From: a virus | IMG/VR virus record: IMGVR_UViG_3300023116_003900 | Span: 1-42,843 of that record | Direction: 5' to 3' (one strand) | Length of the DNA stretch: 42,843 nucleotides | Part shown: piece by piece, positions 1,659-40,422 of the stretch | How the letters are laid out: every line of letters begins with the position of its first letter | How positions within the stretch are numbered: the first letter of the stretch is position 1 | Notes under the pieces: model-generated | What the model was told of the DNA's origin: nothing | Database searches by the model: none | The model's input: only the letters and a program-made list of their open reading frames with translations | Made by a program: the position numbers and the translations under genes

Positions 1659-3040
1659 GTTTTCCGTCTTTTAAAGACTATCTCGTTGAAGAACAACGCG
1701 AGGTATTTTTCACATTCGGCAGAATGAATCCGCCGACTATTGGTCATGGCAAACTAATGAAAGTCATGGCTACAAAAGCGGGCAAGAATCCCTACAAAGT
1801 TTACTTGTCACAGTCAAGTGATGCTAAAAAGAATCCTCTCACTTACGAACAGAAAATTAAGCACGTTCGTAAGATGTTCCCAAAACACGCACGTAACGTA
1901 ATCATGGATAAGAAACTTCGAAACGTATTCGAAGTCGCGACTAGTCTCTACGATCAAGGCTTTAATCGCATTACCATGGTTGTCGGTGCTGACCGTATTA
2001 CCGAATTCAAAACACTCCTAGAAAAGTACAACGGTGAGAAAGCGCGACATGGTTTCTATAACTTTGAGCGTATCACTGTAGTTTCTGCTGGTGAGCGAGA
2101 TCCAGATGCCGATGACGTGACAGGCATGTCTGCATCAAAGCAACGTGAAAATGCTAAGAATAATGATTTCACAACGTTCGCACAAGGTGTGCCATCTACG
2201 ATGAGTAGCCGTGACGCGAAGAAACTGTTTAATGATGTGCGCTCTGGCATGGGCTTAAAAGAAATGACTCAGTTCAAGAATCACGTTGAACTTAAGCCCG
2301 TATCTGACATGCGAGAAAAATTTGTTGAAGGAGAACTATTTAATGAAGGAGATCAAGTCATCGTTAAAGAGACTGGTGAAATGGGTCGAGTATCGCGCCT
2401 TGGTACCAATTACCTTATTCTCGATATGGCTGATGGCAGTTTCTCTCGCAGATGGATTACGGACGTTGAATTAATCGATGAAGCAGGTTGGGGTGGCAGT
2501 GGTATCATGCGGGATCTCATGCCTGGAGTTGATGCTTTCCTTGATCGAACAATCAACAAGAAGAAGTACAAGTTTGCTGTACGTACGTTCCTAGACTTGC
2601 GTAAAAAGAATCCAGGCGATGCTAGAAACAATCTGATCAAAACTGCTAAGATGACCGACACTGACGTTCGCACACTTGACAAGATGTTTCGACAGATGGT
2701 TAAGAAAGGCGTCATGCCTAAGCATCTTGTTAACTATCAGCCAACGTTTGCTGAAGAGAAGACAGACGATTGGTACAAAGATCAGCCCGAATGGGGCACC
2801 CCCGCCGCTACTAAGAAAGCAAAAAAGAATATCGCTGGTCAAGAAAAAGCTGACGTAAAAGAAGTGCGCGGTGACGAAGTAGATGCGGCAATGAAGCGTA
2901 TCTCATTTGACAAGAGACAAGATCGACTACAGAATCGTCGAGAGCGTGACCGCAAAGAGCGCGAGTACGATAAAGTGCTTGATCGTGCGCGACTTGCTAG
3001 GGCTCGTCGAAAGAATAATCAAACGAACCGAGTTGTATAA
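1655..3040 (+). CDS. NMN adenylyltransferase-like head protein, multi-module
   Basis: This 461-aa protein has a leader MSFPSFKDYLVEE (capsid-targeting type, LVE cut). It is followed by a cytidylyltransferase-like nucleotidyltransferase domain: GRMNPPTIGH at residues 22-31 carries the (H/T)xGH motif, and MSSRDAKKLF near 182 sits where the family has its ISSTxxR signature. A short SH3/KOW-like module (FNEGDQVIVKETGE...) follows near residue 228. The rest, past ELIDEAGW (an IDE-A site), is basic and helical. The family joins NMN or similar to ATP, giving NAD. Missing Arg in the second signature leaves activity uncertain. It overlaps the upstream gene by 4 nt (ATGA). Fold call is good; substrate and packaging are inference. 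Confidence 0.75.
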   Translation: MSFPSFKDYLVEEQREVFFTFGRMNPPTIGHGKLMKVMATKAGKNPYKVYLSQSSDAKKNPLTYEQKIKHVRKMFPKHARNVIMDKKLRNVFEVATSLYDQGFNRITMVVGADRITEFKTLLEKYNGEKARHGFYNFERITVVSAGERDPDADDVTGMSASKQRENAKNNDFTTFAQGVPSTMSSRDAKKLFNDVRSGMGLKEMTQFKNHVELKPVSDMREKFVEGELFNEGDQVIVKETGEMGRVSRLGTNYLILDMADGSFSRRWITDVELIDEAGWGGSGIMRDLMPGVDAFLDRTINKKKYKFAVRTFLDLRKKNPGDARNNLIKTAKMTDTDVRTLDKMFRQMVKKGVMPKHLVNYQPTFAEEKTDDWYKDQPEWGTPAATKKAKKNIAGQEKADVKEVRGDEVDAAMKRISFDKRQDRLQNRRERDRKEREYDKVLDRARLARARRKNNQTNRVV

Positions 3041-12958: not shown

Positions 12959-13348
12959 ATGGCGTACTCAGAAAAGGTGTTAGACCACTATGATAACCCA
13001 AGAAACGTTGGAAAGCTTGATGAGCAGGATGAAGCCGTGGGAACAGGCATGGTTGGCGCTCCTGCTTGCGGAGATGTCATGCGGTTGCAAATCAAAGTAT
13101 CGGATGACGGAGTTATTGAAGACGCTAAATTCAAAACTTATGGATGTGGATCCGCAATTGCATCAAGTTCTCTTCTCACAGAATGGGTCAAAGGTAAAAA
13201 CCTTGACGAAGCTGGCGCAATCAAGAATACTGACATCGCTTCAGAACTGGCACTACCGCCAGTAAAAATTCATTGTTCGGTACTAGCCGAAGACGCAATC
13301 AAAGCCGCAATTCAAAATTACAGGGACAAAAGAGATGGCACTACTTGA
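12959..13348 (+). CDS. iscU: Fe-S cluster scaffold protein IscU
   Basis: 129 aa, collinear with E. coli IscU over its whole length and very similar to it by memory. C37, D39, C63, H105 and C106, the cluster ligands and assembly residues, are all present, as is LPPVK (99-103), the HscA chaperone recognition motif. It would build [2Fe-2S] clusters with the host cysteine desulfurase IscS and be emptied by host HscA/HscB; none of these partners is in the window. It sits between nrdA and nrdB and overlaps nrdB by 14 nt, so all three are co-expressed. A recent gain from a proteobacterium is likely. Confidence 0.95.
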   Translation: MAYSEKVLDHYDNPRNVGKLDEQDEAVGTGMVGAPACGDVMRLQIKVSDDGVIEDAKFKTYGCGSAIASSSLLTEWVKGKNLDEAGAIKNTDIASELALPPVKIHCSVLAEDAIKAAIQNYRDKRDGTT

Positions 13349-14330: not shown

Positions 14331-14464
14331 TGGAAGAGTACGAATATTCTTTAGTTTGTTATTTCTGTGAGGCTAAAGTAATTCTTACTGTATGTGACAG
14401 CGAAGAAAAGCCTCGTGCTTGTCCAATGTGTGGAACAGAATGTGAAACAGACTGGGAAGAATGA
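14330..14464 (+). CDS. Small zinc-ribbon protein
   Basis: 44 aa, ATG overlapping the nrdB TAA. CYFC and CPMC form a zinc-ribbon pair in an otherwise acidic peptide. It overlaps the carbamoyltransferase start (ATGA). Small phage zinc ribbons of this type are common; function unknown. Confidence 0.6.
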   Translation: MEEYEYSLVCYFCEAKVILTVCDSEEKPRACPMCGTECETDWEE

Positions 14465-16059
14465 AGCCACACTTTTCGATATTTGAAGGTGGGCACGATC
14501 CCAACTTCACCATCTTTGATCCTAATACCAAAAAGTTCTACATCTATGAGTTAGAACGAATTCTTGGCATCAAAAATTATCACATTCAAAGACCTCTGCG
14601 AGCCGCAGGACAAAAACAATATTATCATGCAGTTAGATTTGGCGTAGAACATGCATACGAGAATTATGGCATTGCTAACGATTTTGAATGGCTTTATCAT
14701 AAATCGATAGCAATGAATGAGTCCTTCTGGGACAGAGATCAGATTAAATGGAAGCATTGTAAGTTAAATAGAGTGCATCACCATGACGCACATGCGTGGT
14801 GTGGCTATGCACAATCACCTTTTGAAAAGTGCGCAGTCATATCTTGGGACGGTAAAGGTGATGACACTTCGTTTCGTACATGTGAGTTTAGCAAGTGGCA
14901 TCAAAGGCACACGAGCAATCAACACTTTAAACACTCAGAAGTCTATACTCGTGCCGGTCACCTTTGTAAGATATTCAAAGACACTCACACTCTAAGTATC
15001 GCCGGTAAGTTTATGGGACTAAGCGCATACGGTGAAATAGATCAAGAATATTATGATTACTTTAGATGGCGTATGCGGACAGGCTATGGCTATCATAAAA
15101 CCAACGCATTGGATGCGGGGATCGATCTAGCATTTAACGAAGATTTTGCGTATAAAGTAGAGTCGGTGTACGAGCACCGCAAAGCATTTAACATAGCATA
15201 CACTGCACAAAAAGCCTTAGAAGATGATATTCTAGAGTGGATTGACAAGAACTATATTCATACAATTCGCGATTATGACAACAACCTGATTCTCACTGGC
15301 GGCACTGCGTTAAACGTTTTGGTTAATGAGAAAATCAAGCGAGCGTTTCCAGGCATCAATGTTTTTGTTCCACCTAACTGTGGCGACAGCGGTCAAAGTT
15401 TCGGTGCTATGATGTGGCATCTGACCGAAGAAGAAATCTTCCAAGAAAAAGTTCGATGTGAATTTATGGGTCCTCCTCTGTGGGACTACAAACAAATTCC
15501 TATATACATCAAGAAAAGAGGCGCCACACAGATCAACATATCTGACATTGCGCAACTGCTCAGAGAGCAAAAGATTATTGGCATCTGTCAGGGCAACATG
15601 GAGTGTGGACCTCGTGCATTGGGCAATCGTTCTATTCTATGTGATGCTTCGAATCTACACGCAAAAGATATTCTGAACGCAAAGGTCAAGTTCAGAGAAT
15701 GGTTTAGACCATTCGCTCCTGTGTGCAAGAAAGAAGATGCACACAAGTATTTCTACTCACCGTCTTTCGATAACATGGAGATGATGCAGTTCATTGCAGA
15801 CGTAAAGCCAGAGTATCGAAAAGAATTTCCTGCAATTACACACATTGATAATACAGCCAGACTACAAGTAGTCACACCTGAATTCAACGAGCCGCTATAT
15901 AATATCTTAGATGCGTTCGATGGAGTTTTGATTAACACGTCATTCAATGTTCAAGGTAAGCCTATACTAAATAGTATGAAAGAGGCGATGAACGTACTTG
16001 ACAACACAGGACTCGATCACGTGGTTGTTGAATATGAAGGTGACTACTGGCTGTTTTAA
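14461..16059 (+). CDS. NodU/CmcH/TobZ-family carbamoyltransferase, copy 1
   Basis: 532 aa. The N-terminal Kae1-like domain has the metal-binding HHHDAHAWCG (about 106-115), DGKGDD and FMGLSAYG; the C-terminal YrdC-like domain has CGPRALGNRSILCD, FRPFAP and LINTSFNVQGKPI. The family moves carbamoyl from carbamoyl phosphate via carbamoyl-AMP to a hydroxyl, usually on a sugar or nucleoside. In phages the acceptor may be a DNA-linked group or a glycan; both are plausible here, given the TET-associated glycosyltransferase and the sugar operon. Overlaps neighbours on both sides (ATGA, TAATG). Paralogue follows at 16471. Confidence 0.9.
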   Translation: MKPHFSIFEGGHDPNFTIFDPNTKKFYIYELERILGIKNYHIQRPLRAAGQKQYYHAVRFGVEHAYENYGIANDFEWLYHKSIAMNESFWDRDQIKWKHCKLNRVHHHDAHAWCGYAQSPFEKCAVISWDGKGDDTSFRTCEFSKWHQRHTSNQHFKHSEVYTRAGHLCKIFKDTHTLSIAGKFMGLSAYGEIDQEYYDYFRWRMRTGYGYHKTNALDAGIDLAFNEDFAYKVESVYEHRKAFNIAYTAQKALEDDILEWIDKNYIHTIRDYDNNLILTGGTALNVLVNEKIKRAFPGINVFVPPNCGDSGQSFGAMMWHLTEEEIFQEKVRCEFMGPPLWDYKQIPIYIKKRGATQINISDIAQLLREQKIIGICQGNMECGPRALGNRSILCDASNLHAKDILNAKVKFREWFRPFAPVCKKEDAHKYFYSPSFDNMEMMQFIADVKPEYRKEFPAITHIDNTARLQVVTPEFNEPLYNILDAFDGVLINTSFNVQGKPILNSMKEAMNVLDNTGLDHVVVEYEGDYWLF

Positions 16060-16505
16060 TGTGGCATTATAAAAATTTACACTACGATCCAAGTGAAGAC
16101 GAACTACAAGATTACGTAGGTTTCGTTTATCGCATCACTGAACTTGATACTGGTAAGAAGTATATTGGTAAAAAGTTTTTTTGGGCAACGAGAAAGTTGC
16201 CACCCTTAAAAGGTCAGAAACGAAAGCGTACTAAACGTACGATTTCAGACTGGCAAGATTACTTCGGCAGTTCCGAAGAACTCAAGCAACTTGTAGAAAA
16301 GAAAGGTCACGATGCTTACCACCGAGAAATACTTCGGCTGTGTAAGACTAAGGGCGAATGTTCTTACTACGAAGCCAAGCTACAGTTCGAATACGATGTA
16401 TTGCTTCGTGACGATTATTACAATGAGTTTATAGGTTGTAAAATTCACTCAAAACATTTGAAGAGAGACGATGGGCAATATAGCGGCGGCACACTGGGGT
16501 CATGA
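16059..16505 (+). CDS. GIY-YIG-type endonuclease
   Basis: 148 aa. GFVYRITELDTGKKYIGKKF (21-40) is a variant GIY-YIG signature, and the later YYEAKLQFEYDVL gives the conserved Glu region. It resembles Seg-type and other free-standing phage homing nucleases. It lies between two carbamoyltransferase paralogues and overlaps the second by 35 nt, which is deep for a newly inserted gene and suggests long residence. Nuclease fold likely; homing is inference. Confidence 0.7.
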   Translation: MWHYKNLHYDPSEDELQDYVGFVYRITELDTGKKYIGKKFFWATRKLPPLKGQKRKRTKRTISDWQDYFGSSEELKQLVEKKGHDAYHREILRLCKTKGECSYYEAKLQFEYDVLLRDDYYNEFIGCKIHSKHLKRDDGQYSGGTLGS

Positions 16506-18243
16506 TTCCGCAATCTGTTTTTATAAAGCCGACACTCAAACATTTCACACCGTTGAAATGGAAAAGTTGTCTGGTATTAAGCATTTTCGTGGACATGGCA
16601 GACATCATCAAACTGTAGATTGGCTGAAAAAAGTTTTAAAAGTTGCAGAAGAAGAATTTGGTATCGAAAATGACTTCGATACTTTTATCATTGGTTCCTG
16701 CGATAGGTATCTAGATCCAGAACTTCATGAATTTAATTCTGGATTAAAAGTCAATCCTAAGCACGTCAGAGAAGTATTCAACGTTCGTGAATTCAAAGTA
16801 GCATATCGACATCATGCGGGTCATGCGTGGTGTGGAGTTGCGCAGTCTCCATGGGAGGGTAAAAAGTGTGCTGTGTTTACACACGATGCTGGTGGCGATG
16901 ACGGTCATACATTCATGTGGAAACACGTTAACAATATTTGCATATCTAAACAAACCCCTCACTGGCACAACCCTCCTGACAGAGCGTATTTTGGTCGCTA
17001 TTACACTGCATCATCTTGTCATGGTGTACATGATATTGCTTCTAAGACGGAACAGTCTTTAGACATTGCTGGTAAAGTAATGGGAGCGGCGGCATATGGC
17101 AGGCAATCATCGCCGTGGTATATTGTGGGGCAAAGGCTCTATAAAGAAGATCCTGATACGATTGAATGGATTAATCCCATGGCAAATTTCTTTAAAGCTT
17201 GGTACTTGCAGACACAAGAAGAATTAGAGGCAAAGGGAATTCGTGGTTACAAGAATGGTAAACAGTATCTTAATAAAATTATTGCTGAATCGCCTGAGCA
17301 ATTTAATCCATATGAATTTTGGACATCACCGCTTGGTTTAACTTGGAGAGAACAGACTGATATTGCATTGGGAATTCAGCATCAACACGAAAGAGAAGTC
17401 GTAGCGTTTGTCAAAAAGCATCGAGATTTTATTCGAAAGTGTGACAACAAACTTGTCATATCTGGTGGATGCGCGTTGAATCTTCTCACAAATAAAAGAA
17501 TACAAGAAGAATTAGAAATTGAAGTTTATGTTCCACCAAACGCCCATGATTGTGGGCTGCCTTTTGGATTTCTTATTCAACATTTAGCAGAGATTGGCAA
17601 CGATGTGTGGAAACGTGGCGTCGATATTACATACTCTGGTCCAAAACTTCATGATAGACATGAGCTTGACAAATACAAAAAACAGTATTATCATGAAGAG
17701 ATTACAATTTCTGATTTTGCAAAACTTTTGAGAGATGATGAAATCATTGGTTTCATGCAAGGCGGTGGAGAAGTAGGAGCTAGGGCTTTAGGCAATCGAT
17801 CCATTCTATGTGATCCAAAAGGCTTTGATAAGAAAGACAAAGTGAATATTGTAAAGCGGCGAGAACCTTATCGACCCTTTGCTCCAATGTGCCGTTACGA
17901 AGACGCTGAAAAATATTTTGAAGCATACAGTTACGAGAATCTTGCGTACATGAATTTTGCTGTAACGACTCGGGCTGAATATGTGGAAGAACTTGCGGCT
18001 GTCACTCACGTTGATGGCACAGCAAGATTGCAGACGGTGACACGAGACCAGAACAAATTCATACATGATTTGCTAACAGAATTTGATGGTGTTTTATTGA
18101 ACACTTCTTTCAATGTTCAAGGCAAACCAATACTAAATACATTAGAAGAAGCGTTTACAGTGCTAGATAAAACAGCACTCGACGGAGTGGTGTACTTAGA
18201 TGATGATGAAAAACTGTGGCTTTTCAGATCAAAAAAAGCATAA
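16471..18243 (+). CDS. NodU/CmcH/TobZ-family carbamoyltransferase, copy 2
   Basis: 590 aa. The start MGNIAAAHWGHDSAICF is typical of the family. RHHAGHAWCG is the metal motif, HDAGGDDG and KVMGAAAYG follow, and the C-terminal domain has ARALGNRSILCD, RPFAPMC and LLNTSFNVQGKPI. The usual GPRALGN is GARALGN here. It shares long motifs with the copy at 14461 but has an extra insertion of about 60 residues near the middle, so the two probably use different acceptors. It follows the nuclease gene with a 35-nt overlap. Confidence 0.9.
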   Translation: MGNIAAAHWGHDSAICFYKADTQTFHTVEMEKLSGIKHFRGHGRHHQTVDWLKKVLKVAEEEFGIENDFDTFIIGSCDRYLDPELHEFNSGLKVNPKHVREVFNVREFKVAYRHHAGHAWCGVAQSPWEGKKCAVFTHDAGGDDGHTFMWKHVNNICISKQTPHWHNPPDRAYFGRYYTASSCHGVHDIASKTEQSLDIAGKVMGAAAYGRQSSPWYIVGQRLYKEDPDTIEWINPMANFFKAWYLQTQEELEAKGIRGYKNGKQYLNKIIAESPEQFNPYEFWTSPLGLTWREQTDIALGIQHQHEREVVAFVKKHRDFIRKCDNKLVISGGCALNLLTNKRIQEELEIEVYVPPNAHDCGLPFGFLIQHLAEIGNDVWKRGVDITYSGPKLHDRHELDKYKKQYYHEEITISDFAKLLRDDEIIGFMQGGGEVGARALGNRSILCDPKGFDKKDKVNIVKRREPYRPFAPMCRYEDAEKYFEAYSYENLAYMNFAVTTRAEYVEELAAVTHVDGTARLQTVTRDQNKFIHDLLTEFDGVLLNTSFNVQGKPILNTLEEAFTVLDKTALDGVVYLDDDEKLWLFRSKKA

Positions 18244-37923: not shown

Positions 37924-38248
37924 AGAAAAAACTGTATACGATAACTTTATCGGTCAGAAAGCAAAAGACAATCGACCTGCTACTCTAGCAGAATTCCTTG
38001 ATGAAGATGAAGATGCTATCTTCGAAGAGCCGTGGCAAGAACACTGGCAGGGCATGCCTGAGTTTGAGCAAGACGAAAACAAACCCTACAAGACGATCAA
38101 CGTACACTTTCGTACCAAAGAAGACTACGAAGAGTTTGCGAAGATTATCGAACAGCCTTTGACTACAAAAACAAAGTCGATCTGGCATCCACGTCTAGAA
38201 ATTACCAAAAACGCACTCATGCGTTGGATTGAGGAGAACGATGACTAA
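37910..38248 (+). CDS. Small protein associated with DNA-modification genes
   Basis: 112 aa from ATG 37910. MPEFEQDENKPYKTINVHF, EDYEEFAKIIEQPLTTKTKS and IWHP are the conserved blocks. I recall this short family beside TET-associated glycosyltransferases and DNA methyltransferases in phages. Function is not known to me. It overlaps the nuclease by 14 nt and the glycosyltransferase by 8 nt. Confidence 0.6.
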   Translation: MANVEEKTVYDNFIGQKAKDNRPATLAEFLDEDEDAIFEEPWQEHWQGMPEFEQDENKPYKTINVHFRTKEDYEEFAKIIEQPLTTKTKSIWHPRLEITKNALMRWIEENDD

Positions 38249-39176
38249 TCCAAGATATCCAGTTTATATCATTTCGAAAGGGCGTCACGAGTCGATGTTT
38301 ACATCGCGCTCGTTGGCGCGTATGAAAGTACCGCACTACATTGCAATTGAGCCACAAGATGAAGCAAATTACGAACAAGCACTGGACAATTTTGGGATAC
38401 GGGAGTTTGTTACTCTACTGGTTGCACCTTTCTCTAATCACGGTGACGGTCCTGGGCGGGCTAGAAACTGGTGTTGGGATCACTCAATAGAACTTGGTGC
38501 AAAGCGACACTGGGTTCTTGATGACAACATTCAAGACTTCTATCGTCTGCACCGAAATCTTCGTGTTCGTGTTGAGTCTGGTGTTTGCTTCCGTGTCATG
38601 GAAGACTTTGTTGATCGATACACTAACGTAAAGATCGCTGGTCCTCAGTATCGATTCTTCTGCGCACCTAATCAGAAGTATCCGCCTTATGTGGCGAACA
38701 CACGTATCTACTCGTGTCTGTTAATCGAGAATGATTGCAAGCATCGCTGGCGTGGTCGTTACAACGAAGACACTGATATCTGTCTGCGTGTTCTCAAAGA
38801 CGGCGACTGCACCGTACAGTTCAATGCGTTTCTACAAGGCAAAGCCGCAACGCAGACTGTCAAGGGTGGTAACTCTACTGAGTTTTATCACAAAGAAGTT
38901 GGCTACGATCCTAAGACTGGCGAAGCACTCAAAGCAGACGATCTACTTGAAGTAAAAGATAGATACAATGTGGTCGGTACGGTCGCTAAGTCTCAGATGC
39001 TTGTTGACATGCATCCTGACGTGGCAAAGATGGTGTGGCGATATGGTCGATGGCACCATCACGTGAACTATGATCCGTTTAAGAAAAACAAGTTAGTGTT
39101 TAAAGAAGGCATCGAAGTGCCGAAGGGTGTAAACAACTACGGCATGAAGCTAGTAACAAACTGGGGTGTTGAGTGA
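38241..39176 (+). CDS. TET-associated-type glycosyltransferase
   Basis: 311 aa from ATG 38241. RYPVYIISKGRHESMFTSRS (5-24), IAIEPQDEANY, RHWVLDDNIQDFYRLHRNLR (metal-binding DDN at 94-96), NTRIYSCLLI and RGRYNEDTDICLRVLKDG (acidic motif 175-179) match the family found with TET/JBP oxygenases in phage base-modification operons. Those enzymes are thought to put a sugar on 5-hydroxymethylcytosine-type bases. No TET or hydroxymethylase lies in this window, so the base would be made elsewhere in the genome or host. Family call strong; DNA substrate inferred. Confidence 0.83.
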   Translation: MTNPRYPVYIISKGRHESMFTSRSLARMKVPHYIAIEPQDEANYEQALDNFGIREFVTLLVAPFSNHGDGPGRARNWCWDHSIELGAKRHWVLDDNIQDFYRLHRNLRVRVESGVCFRVMEDFVDRYTNVKIAGPQYRFFCAPNQKYPPYVANTRIYSCLLIENDCKHRWRGRYNEDTDICLRVLKDGDCTVQFNAFLQGKAATQTVKGGNSTEFYHKEVGYDPKTGEALKADDLLEVKDRYNVVGTVAKSQMLVDMHPDVAKMVWRYGRWHHHVNYDPFKKNKLVFKEGIEVPKGVNNYGMKLVTNWGVE

Positions 39177-39718
39177 ATGTAAAAGAAGCAACTAAAGAGT
39201 TGCATGATAAGGTAGAAGAAACGGTCTTTGCACAAAGACTACTCAGCGGCGACTATGACGAAGATGATTATGTGCGCTATCTAAATGCGCAGTATGTCAT
39301 CTTTGATGCCATGGAAAATCATTTCGAATATCGTATTCCTAATGACGCACTGCATCGTTGCGAAGCTATCGAAAAGGACTTGATGTCTCTTGGTAAAAGA
39401 CCTTCTCGTTTGATTACTCCTTACTCTGCTTGTCGTTATGCTGATTACATTCTAGGCGTAAATGAGTGGAGCGAAGAGCAACGCAATTCGCACGTCTATC
39501 TTAACTATCTTGGCATGATGTTTGGTGGTAGCATTGTTTCGAAAGGAGTGCCTACGCCAGGACACATGTATAAGTTTGAGTCACGTCAAGAATGTATTAA
39601 AAACATACGTGAACTAGACCTCGATGTAAATCAAGTAAAAGAAGGTTTTCGATATCAGATCGAACTAATGGAAGAGCTAGAGAGAATCAAGCATGTCTCT
39701 AAAGAACAGACTGATTGA
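39173..39718 (+). CDS. Heme oxygenase
   Basis: 181 aa, GTG start overlapping the upstream TGA. ELHDKVEE with H11 is the proximal heme ligand region; YVRYLNAQYVIFDAMENHFE and YLGMMFGGSIVSKG (G118-G119, distal helix) are family blocks. It opens heme to biliverdin, releasing iron and CO. The bilin reductase gene follows with a 26-nt overlap, so biliverdin should be its substrate. Shorter than many bacterial enzymes (about 200-240 aa). Confidence 0.82.
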   Translation: MNVKEATKELHDKVEETVFAQRLLSGDYDEDDYVRYLNAQYVIFDAMENHFEYRIPNDALHRCEAIEKDLMSLGKRPSRLITPYSACRYADYILGVNEWSEEQRNSHVYLNYLGMMFGGSIVSKGVPTPGHMYKFESRQECIKNIRELDLDVNQVKEGFRYQIELMEELERIKHVSKEQTD

Positions 39719-40337
39719 AGTTACTAATCAGATGCAGGAAATCATCCTGCGTCAGCCTGGTGTCAAGCCGATGGACACTGAAGACTTTGGTTGGGAAAAC
39801 TATCGATGGTCAGGTGATAAGTTTCGTCTAGCGCACATCGAACGATTCTTTGAAGCAGGCTTGCTTGTAGCCCATGTCACATGTTTTCCACATGAAGGAG
39901 ATGCCGCACCCATCTTTGGCTTTGATGTAGTTGGTAGCGAGAAGACTGGTAAGATTGGTGGTGCATTTCTAGACTACTCACCCGTTCTGTATGATACCAA
40001 ATGGCACGATACTGAATGGAACTCTGATCGTATTCTGCCCGAGTGGGCTACGGTGTTCTCTGATGACTTCATTGCTCTCCGTCCACACGAAGATGAATAC
40101 GAGCCGTTCTTTGAGCTATCGCTGACTAAGTTCGAAGAGTACTTTAATGCACTTGATACCTCAGTACACGTCGATACGCCTGCCGCCAAAGCACTGGTCA
40201 TCGAGCGACAGAACGAGTACTGCGAGAAACAAGCGTCCAATCCCCGGACCTACGCCGCTCTGAAGCACAAGATTGGTGCTGAGAGAGCGAGGTATTTCAT
40301 GACTGAGATACTTTTCCCCAAAATCGTAAGTATTTGA
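39693..40337 (+). CDS. pcyX: Ferredoxin-dependent bilin reductase, PcyX-like
   Basis: 214 aa. RLAHIERFFEAGLLVAHVT, PIFGFDVVGSEKTGKIGGAF, LDYSPVLYDTKW with D94 (catalytic Asp of the family), LPEWATVFSDDFIALRP, and a C-terminal QNEYCEKQ helix mark the FDBR family. I favour the PcyX branch, described from ocean viral sequences outside cyanophages, over PebS of cyanophages, because of its general motif pattern. It should reduce biliverdin, probably to phycoerythrobilin, with host ferredoxin. Exact product needs testing. Last gene of the long operon. Confidence 0.8.
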   Translation: MSLKNRLIEVTNQMQEIILRQPGVKPMDTEDFGWENYRWSGDKFRLAHIERFFEAGLLVAHVTCFPHEGDAAPIFGFDVVGSEKTGKIGGAFLDYSPVLYDTKWHDTEWNSDRILPEWATVFSDDFIALRPHEDEYEPFFELSLTKFEEYFNALDTSVHVDTPAAKALVIERQNEYCEKQASNPRTYAALKHKIGAERARYFMTEILFPKIVSI

Positions 40338-40350
40338 TTTCCTTACTTAT

Positions 40351-40422
40351 TCTAAAAAGTTCTAAACATATAGCAAAATAGTCTAAAAAAGCTGTTGACT
40401 TTTCTCCAGATCCTGCGATAAT
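40351..40422 (+). promoter_or_regulatory. Sigma70-type promoter with phased upstream repeats
   Basis: TTGACT (40395-40400), 16-nt spacer, GATAAT (40417-40422). TCTAAA repeats begin at 40351, 40361 and 40382, spaced about one and two helical turns, like an UP element. The core and leader recur at 41271-41336. Confidence 0.72.

Follow-up and report, generated by a model that had tools for sequence, protein, structure and literature searches.

The reason why phages of heterotrophs break down heme is still enigmatic (PMC11480375), and the question is raised again by the locus described here: what would a phage that probably infects a heterotroph gain from encoding both a heme oxygenase (HO) and a ferredoxin-dependent bilin reductase (FDBR)? 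The locus lies in the window, the whole stretch of 42,843 nt of viral DNA that was analysed. Phage HO-FDBR cassettes have already been published (PMC11480375; PMC7892664), as have many metagenomic contigs with reductases of the PcyX type and the biochemistry of the CB_2 enzymes (PMC11480375), and according to record MT647606 the cultured pelagiphage Mosig EXVC030M carries an HO and an FDBR gene as well; the remark in the preliminary description of the window that PcyX-type enzymes are known mostly without firm hosts is therefore out of date.

The heme oxygenase and bilin reductase genes

The HO gene (39173..39718, + strand) has a GTG start and encodes 181 aa that match Pfam PF01126 (E=1.7e-16; 61.1 bits against a cutoff of 23). 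The FDBR gene (39693..40337, + strand) starts with ATG and encodes 214 aa that match PF05996 (E=8.1e-19; 68.6 bits against a cutoff of 31) and also the PHROG 'ferredoxin oxidoreductase' (4.9e-17). AlphaFold2 models of the two proteins (pLDDT 92.2 for the HO and 93.3 for the FDBR) were compared with solved structures: the HO model resembled heme oxygenases including HO-1 and HmuO (Foldseek, TM about 0.7-0.8), and the best fold match of the FDBR model was solved PcyA (TM up to 0.85). Profile score and fold place each protein in its family, together with the proximal His11 in the case of the HO. The route from heme through biliverdin to a reduced bilin, proposed in the preliminary description, is plausible in view of these families, folds and residues.

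As had been noted there, the two genes overlap by 26 nt (39693-39718); in related phage pairs the overlap is typically 8-41 nt. The arrangement, an HO gene followed by an adjacent, overlapping FDBR gene on a phage genome, is that of a hemO-FDBR cassette. Directly 5' of the HO lies a gene for a TAGT-type DNA glycosyltransferase (38244..39176, + strand; PF20691, 4.2e-47), whose stop shares 4 nt (GTGA) with the HO start, so that the cassette probably closes the transcription unit of the TAGT gene; the TAGT gene is kept upstream of the HO in contigs L003-L007 and L013-L015. The FDBR is the final gene ahead of a sigma-70-like promoter (TTGACT-16-GATAAT, 10/12 matches; 40395..40422, + strand). The pair was found again in about 90 other viral contigs, and among relatives both genes are under purifying selection (dN/dS 0.04-0.32 for the HO and 0.10-0.41 for the FDBR), which rules out a pseudogene reading. 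With models that match solved enzymes, purifying selection and recurrence, the pair is confirmed to be genuine and not a product of chance.

Alignment to human HO-1, the numbering of which is used below, showed that H11 of the window HO corresponds to the proximal His25, E15 to Glu29 and G118-G119 to G143-G144; H11 and the glycine pair had been correctly recognized in the preliminary description. The canonical distal network of Tyr58, Arg136 and Asp140 is absent from the window HO, in which F44, N111 and M115 occupy the three positions. Textbook accounts regard these residues as indispensable to a heme oxygenase. In the phage HO class to which the protein belongs they are replaced by Phe, Asn and a hydrophobic residue, respectively, with Phe and Asn invariant across a 24-member alignment and His25, Glu29, His132 and Gly143-144 likewise invariant. 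The class thus lacks supposedly essential residues and is yet under purifying selection; it is found beside both PcyA-like reductases and those named SHD below, and it also occurs without a reductase in Bacteroidota, as described below.

Exchange of the reductase and the proposed role of the cassette

Phage reductases were named by the residues at three PcyA positions: EHD (the window), DHD (PcyX), SHD and QHD. Three sister contigs (L013-L015) match the window in the genes upstream of the cassette, with identities of 89-100%, and their reductase slot is occupied by a PcyX-related SHD reductase followed by an overlapping DUF454 gene, with the same junction in all three. A comparison of L013 with the window yielded identities of 100% for the upstream exonuclease, 98% for the TAGT and 87% for the HO, only 29% for the FDBR, and 81, 89, 67 and 96% for the next genes downstream. 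In the alignment, homology begins again at the promoter (40395..40422), which therefore delimits the exchanged segment on its downstream side. The HOs of the window and L013 are sisters in the HO tree (100/99), whereas their reductases fall in different deep clades; what was exchanged, therefore, is the reductase, alone or together with DUF454, while the HO stayed in place. Since SHD-paired rows outnumber EHD-paired ones in the neighbourhood of the window HO, the tree slightly favours replacement of an SHD by an EHD reductase in the window lineage. An exact 39-mer search for the HO-FDBR junction of the window in other viral contigs gave no other match, and in contig L002 only the FDBR and the region downstream of it are confirmed; the same HO-EHD arrangement is present in L003-L007.

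A gene for a DUF454 (PF04304) membrane protein shares sequence with the 3' end of the SHD reductase gene in several phages (L013:7149-7580, L016:7158-7577, L123:1809-2252 and L125:1780-2220), and DUF454 is also encoded 5' of some reductases of the PcyX type (L053, L054, L059, L068, L069). The protein may be a third component of the bilin cassette.

Three Bacteroidota genomes (G617, G480 and G830) encode a stand-alone HO that shares the Phe/Asn/hydrophobic signature of the phage class and branches inside the phage clade; unlike the phages, these genomes contain no FDBR. The loci of such stand-alone Asp140-less HOs, in genomes without an FDBR, are L169:8735-9259, L170:8355-8873 and L176. Across 395 Bacteroidota genomes one degenerate FDBR copy was found; a broken FDBR (L144:5200-5700), 61% identical to that of phage L008, lies on a contig of a Bacteroidetes MAG. 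With the usual caution that applies to MAGs, the nested HOs and the broken FDBR point to contact of the freshwater branch with Bacteroidota. Two more Bacteroidota genomes (L171:7929-8525 and L172:8303-8932) have an HO of the Asp140 type that falls among PcyX-paired phage HOs. A search for the HO class in 398 Pseudomonadota genomes returned two weak matches, both with the canonical Asp.

The two families, the residues, the co-location, the purifying selection, the clade placement and the exchange can be read from the sequences; from them we infer the catalysis, product, host and physiological role of the cassette as follows, with a confidence somewhat better than even for the reading as a whole. 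The HO would bind heme via His11 and, in a distal pocket rebuilt with Phe44, Asn111 and Met115 in place of Tyr58, Arg136 and Asp140, would open it to biliverdin, iron and CO. The overlapping PcyA-type FDBR would draw electrons from host ferredoxin, and its Glu/His/Asp triad would reduce biliverdin, most likely to phycocyanobilin. The benefit to the phage in its probably heterotrophic host would most likely be heme iron freed during infection, with the reductase acting as a sink that pulls biliverdin off the HO and disposes of it. Possible users of the freed iron in the window are a class I ribonucleotide reductase (RNR) and an IscU/NifU_N Fe-S scaffold (12959..13348, + strand; PF01592, 6.8e-55), whose gene separates those of the large and small RNR subunits.

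Which bilin is formed seems to be of secondary importance, given that the sister phages carry another reductase type behind nearly the same HO, even though a change of reductase type is no proof that the product differs. Iron release with a biliverdin sink is favoured because no phytochrome domain was found in the viral records searched, because reductase types are exchanged and because the HO stands alone in Bacteroidota. Against it, phage contigs with an HO of this class have, almost without exception, an FDBR next to it that keeps its catalytic residues, and a specific reduced bilin may therefore matter. The sister phages, with near-identical HOs and different reductases, amount to a natural experiment on a given pigment versus iron release and biliverdin disposal, and what is gained from heme breakdown has thereby become testable.

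An additional scenario, possible but clearly less probable, is that the cassette supplies a pigment to a host photoreceptor or bilin-binding protein (a bacteriophytochrome or a BBAG-type globin), altering host light sensing, with iron as a by-product. The catalytic His and Asp are retained in all EHD and SHD reductases, the CB_2 PcyA/X was able to feed a phytochrome (PMC11480375), and in the alphaproteobacterium Falsiroseomonas a PcyA gene adjoins a BphO-like HO. No PHY domain, as expected of a phytochrome acceptor, was found in 31 viral records, however, and the differing reductase types behind nearly one HO and the retention of the HO in Bacteroidota devoid of any FDBR also speak against this scenario. 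As the window is a fragment, a bilin acceptor or a ferredoxin may be encoded outside it; among the related records searched, a phage-encoded ferredoxin was found in Mosig only, a 2Fe-2S protein at 2758-3000 of MT647606. A ferrochelatase gene lies near the Mosig HO-FDBR pair (L012:4330-8657).

The Asp140-less heme oxygenases and their reductase partners

The class of the HO and that of its neighbour are tightly associated. In unique viral contigs, HOs without Asp140 adjoin an EHD, SHD or QHD reductase in 52/52 cases, and HOs with Asp140 adjoin a DHD (PcyX) reductase in 40/41, L033 being the exception (Fisher p = 1e-25, relatedness ignored). In a tree leaving out the long-branched L033 the Asp140-less HOs form essentially one clade (96/84), so that the pairing reflects one or a few evolutionary events and not dozens. 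Every reductase beside an Asp140-less HO, the PcyX-related ones included, has Glu, Gln or Ser in place of the Asp of PcyX. It is conceivable, if doubtful, that the Phe58/Asn136/hydrophobic140 HOs employ another proton-relay chemistry or regiochemistry to which their partner reductases have co-adapted, and that an unseen bilin or biliverdin isomer is formed. The class, its pairing with reductase classes and the exchange in place were not found described in the papers searched, most of the subscription literature lying outside that search.

The phage reductases L036-L039 carry Gln at the Glu76 position and are paired with HOs that have Trp or Tyr at that of Asp140. No recognisable HO was found in the loci of the PcyX-type reductases L049, L053, L054, L059, L068, L069, L071, L081, L082, L087, L089, L091 and L095.

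The HO activity of the window protein cannot be assumed, since human HO-1 is turned into a peroxidase by the D140A mutation (PMC5623701). The replacement of Tyr58, Arg136 and Asp140 throughout the class would accordingly suit a protein that, with its distal network lost, now binds heme or is peroxidase-like, beside a reductase that uses host biliverdin. We regard this as unlikely: His25, Glu29, His132 and both helix glycines do not vary, the strict Asn136 and Phe58 suggest a pocket that was rebuilt and not one that has decayed, and in phages the HO adjoins an FDBR that would reduce biliverdin. Moreover, the Arg136/Asp140 network is replaceable, as seen in the plant-type GmHO-1, which functions without both residues (PMC7948506). 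The two residues are missing from the phage class as well; GmHO-1 uses Ala149 and His150, whereas the phage HOs have Asn and a hydrophobic residue and align normally at His25.

The reductase type and the affiliation of the phage

Alignment to PDB sequences equated E50, H61 and D78 of the window FDBR with E76, H88 and D105 of Synechocystis PcyA; in the functional sense, the residues are those of a PcyA. The preliminary description had pointed to D94 of the reductase. This residue is an invariant Asp that aligns with the Asp of the ADLSP motif of PcyA, but it is not the catalytic one; the equivalent of the catalytic Asp105 is D78.

The same description had called the reductase PcyX-like, which would make phycoerythrobilin the product. 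The enzyme is indeed phage-borne, adjoins an HO and has PcyX 5owg as its best PDB sequence match (31.6% identity). However, 5owg and the Mosig FDBR have the PcyX-specific Asp55 at the position of PcyA Glu76, a residue absent in PcyX (PMC10151467), and Asp55 is absent from the window FDBR, which has Glu50 there. In the tree the window FDBR belongs to an EHD phage clade of 19 rows (98/99), where the reductases of L003 and L006 are near it (98/85), and is excluded from the clade of PcyX plus SHD reductases (100/99). All SHD reductases group together (100/100), either within PcyX or as its sister, and the L086 FDBR, which does not differ from 5owg in the part that was aligned, carries the Asp. The PcyX label was therefore rejected, and formation of phycoerythrobilin by a PcyX is very unlikely here.

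In the phylogenetic sense the window FDBR is not a PcyA either: it shares the triad and the fold with the cyanobacterial and cyanophage enzymes, but is only 26-30% identical to cyanobacterial PcyA and separate from their clade (100/100), and it scores 81 bits with the NCBIfam PcyA profile, under the cutoff of 206. The Falsiroseomonas PcyA also stands apart from the EHD clade. Placement inside PebS, which the preliminary description had named as contradicting its proposal, did not hold; PebS is a far outgroup in the tree, and 16% identity together with the trees rules out this assignment.

The freshwater CB_2 pair (vHemO and vPcyA/X), compared by its description, resembles that of the window in that a phage HO accompanies an FDBR without Asp55. 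The CB_2 enzyme makes phycocyanobilin (PCB) in vitro, which was attributed to the missing Asp55 (PMC11480375). With the PcyA triad, no Asp55 and a position outside PcyX, the window FDBR is therefore predicted to form, most likely, PCB and not phycoerythrobilin. The CB_2 FDBR was reported to be intermediate in position between PcyX and PcyA and to have alaS in its vicinity (PMC11480375); this third (Shemin) gene is absent from the window and was present in 1/26 other IMG/VR records, that of L087. Mosig, a T4-like phage that infects a heterotroph, in turn shares with the window an overlapping HO-FDBR pair (hemO-pcyX, overlap 14 nt). The Mosig-type HO possesses Tyr58, Arg136 and Asp140 and its FDBR Asp55, whereas the window HO lacks the network and its FDBR, 33% identical to that of Mosig, has Glu.

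The phage had been described as not looking cyanobacterial, with no photosynthesis genes around the pair, and both points were borne out. A search for psbA and psbD found neither gene in the window, in Mosig, in phage C48C1 or in any of 26 other IMG/VR records with related cassettes (ten of them >100 kb), and it did detect them in both cyanophage controls; although the window is only a fragment, the related records lacked both genes as well. The nearest named relative is C48C1, the record of which gives no host and on which no paper was found: the RNR large subunit is 81% identical, the gp23 of the L007 genome 69.5%, and the IscU/NifU_N of the window 80%. Next come the Methylophilales phage Melnitz (67% for the RNR large subunit and 62% for the L007-genome gp23) and then SAR11 phages. 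The window phage, which is T4-like, thus probably infects a heterotroph, and a match to a cyanobacterial host, the other finding that the preliminary description had named as contradicting its proposal, did not turn up. That the cassette is an auxiliary metabolic gene set of a cyanophage, serving phycobilisomes, is highly improbable: the T4-like, Kyanoviridae-type relatives do include cyanophages (the L007-genome gp23 is 60% identical to that of S-SKS1), and the gp23 of the nearest phages with stated hosts, those of Methylophilales and SAR11, is only slightly nearer, but photosystem genes occur in 0/27 non-cyanophage IMG/VR records and both the HO and the FDBR lie outside the cyanophage clades. 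A cyanophage origin was rejected on the basis of identity and trees.

Elsewhere in the window, two NolO-like carbamoyltransferases are encoded at 14461-16059 and 16471-18243, and radical-SAM, 2OG-oxygenase, glycosyltransferase and TAGT genes are also present; these may form a DNA hypermodification set.
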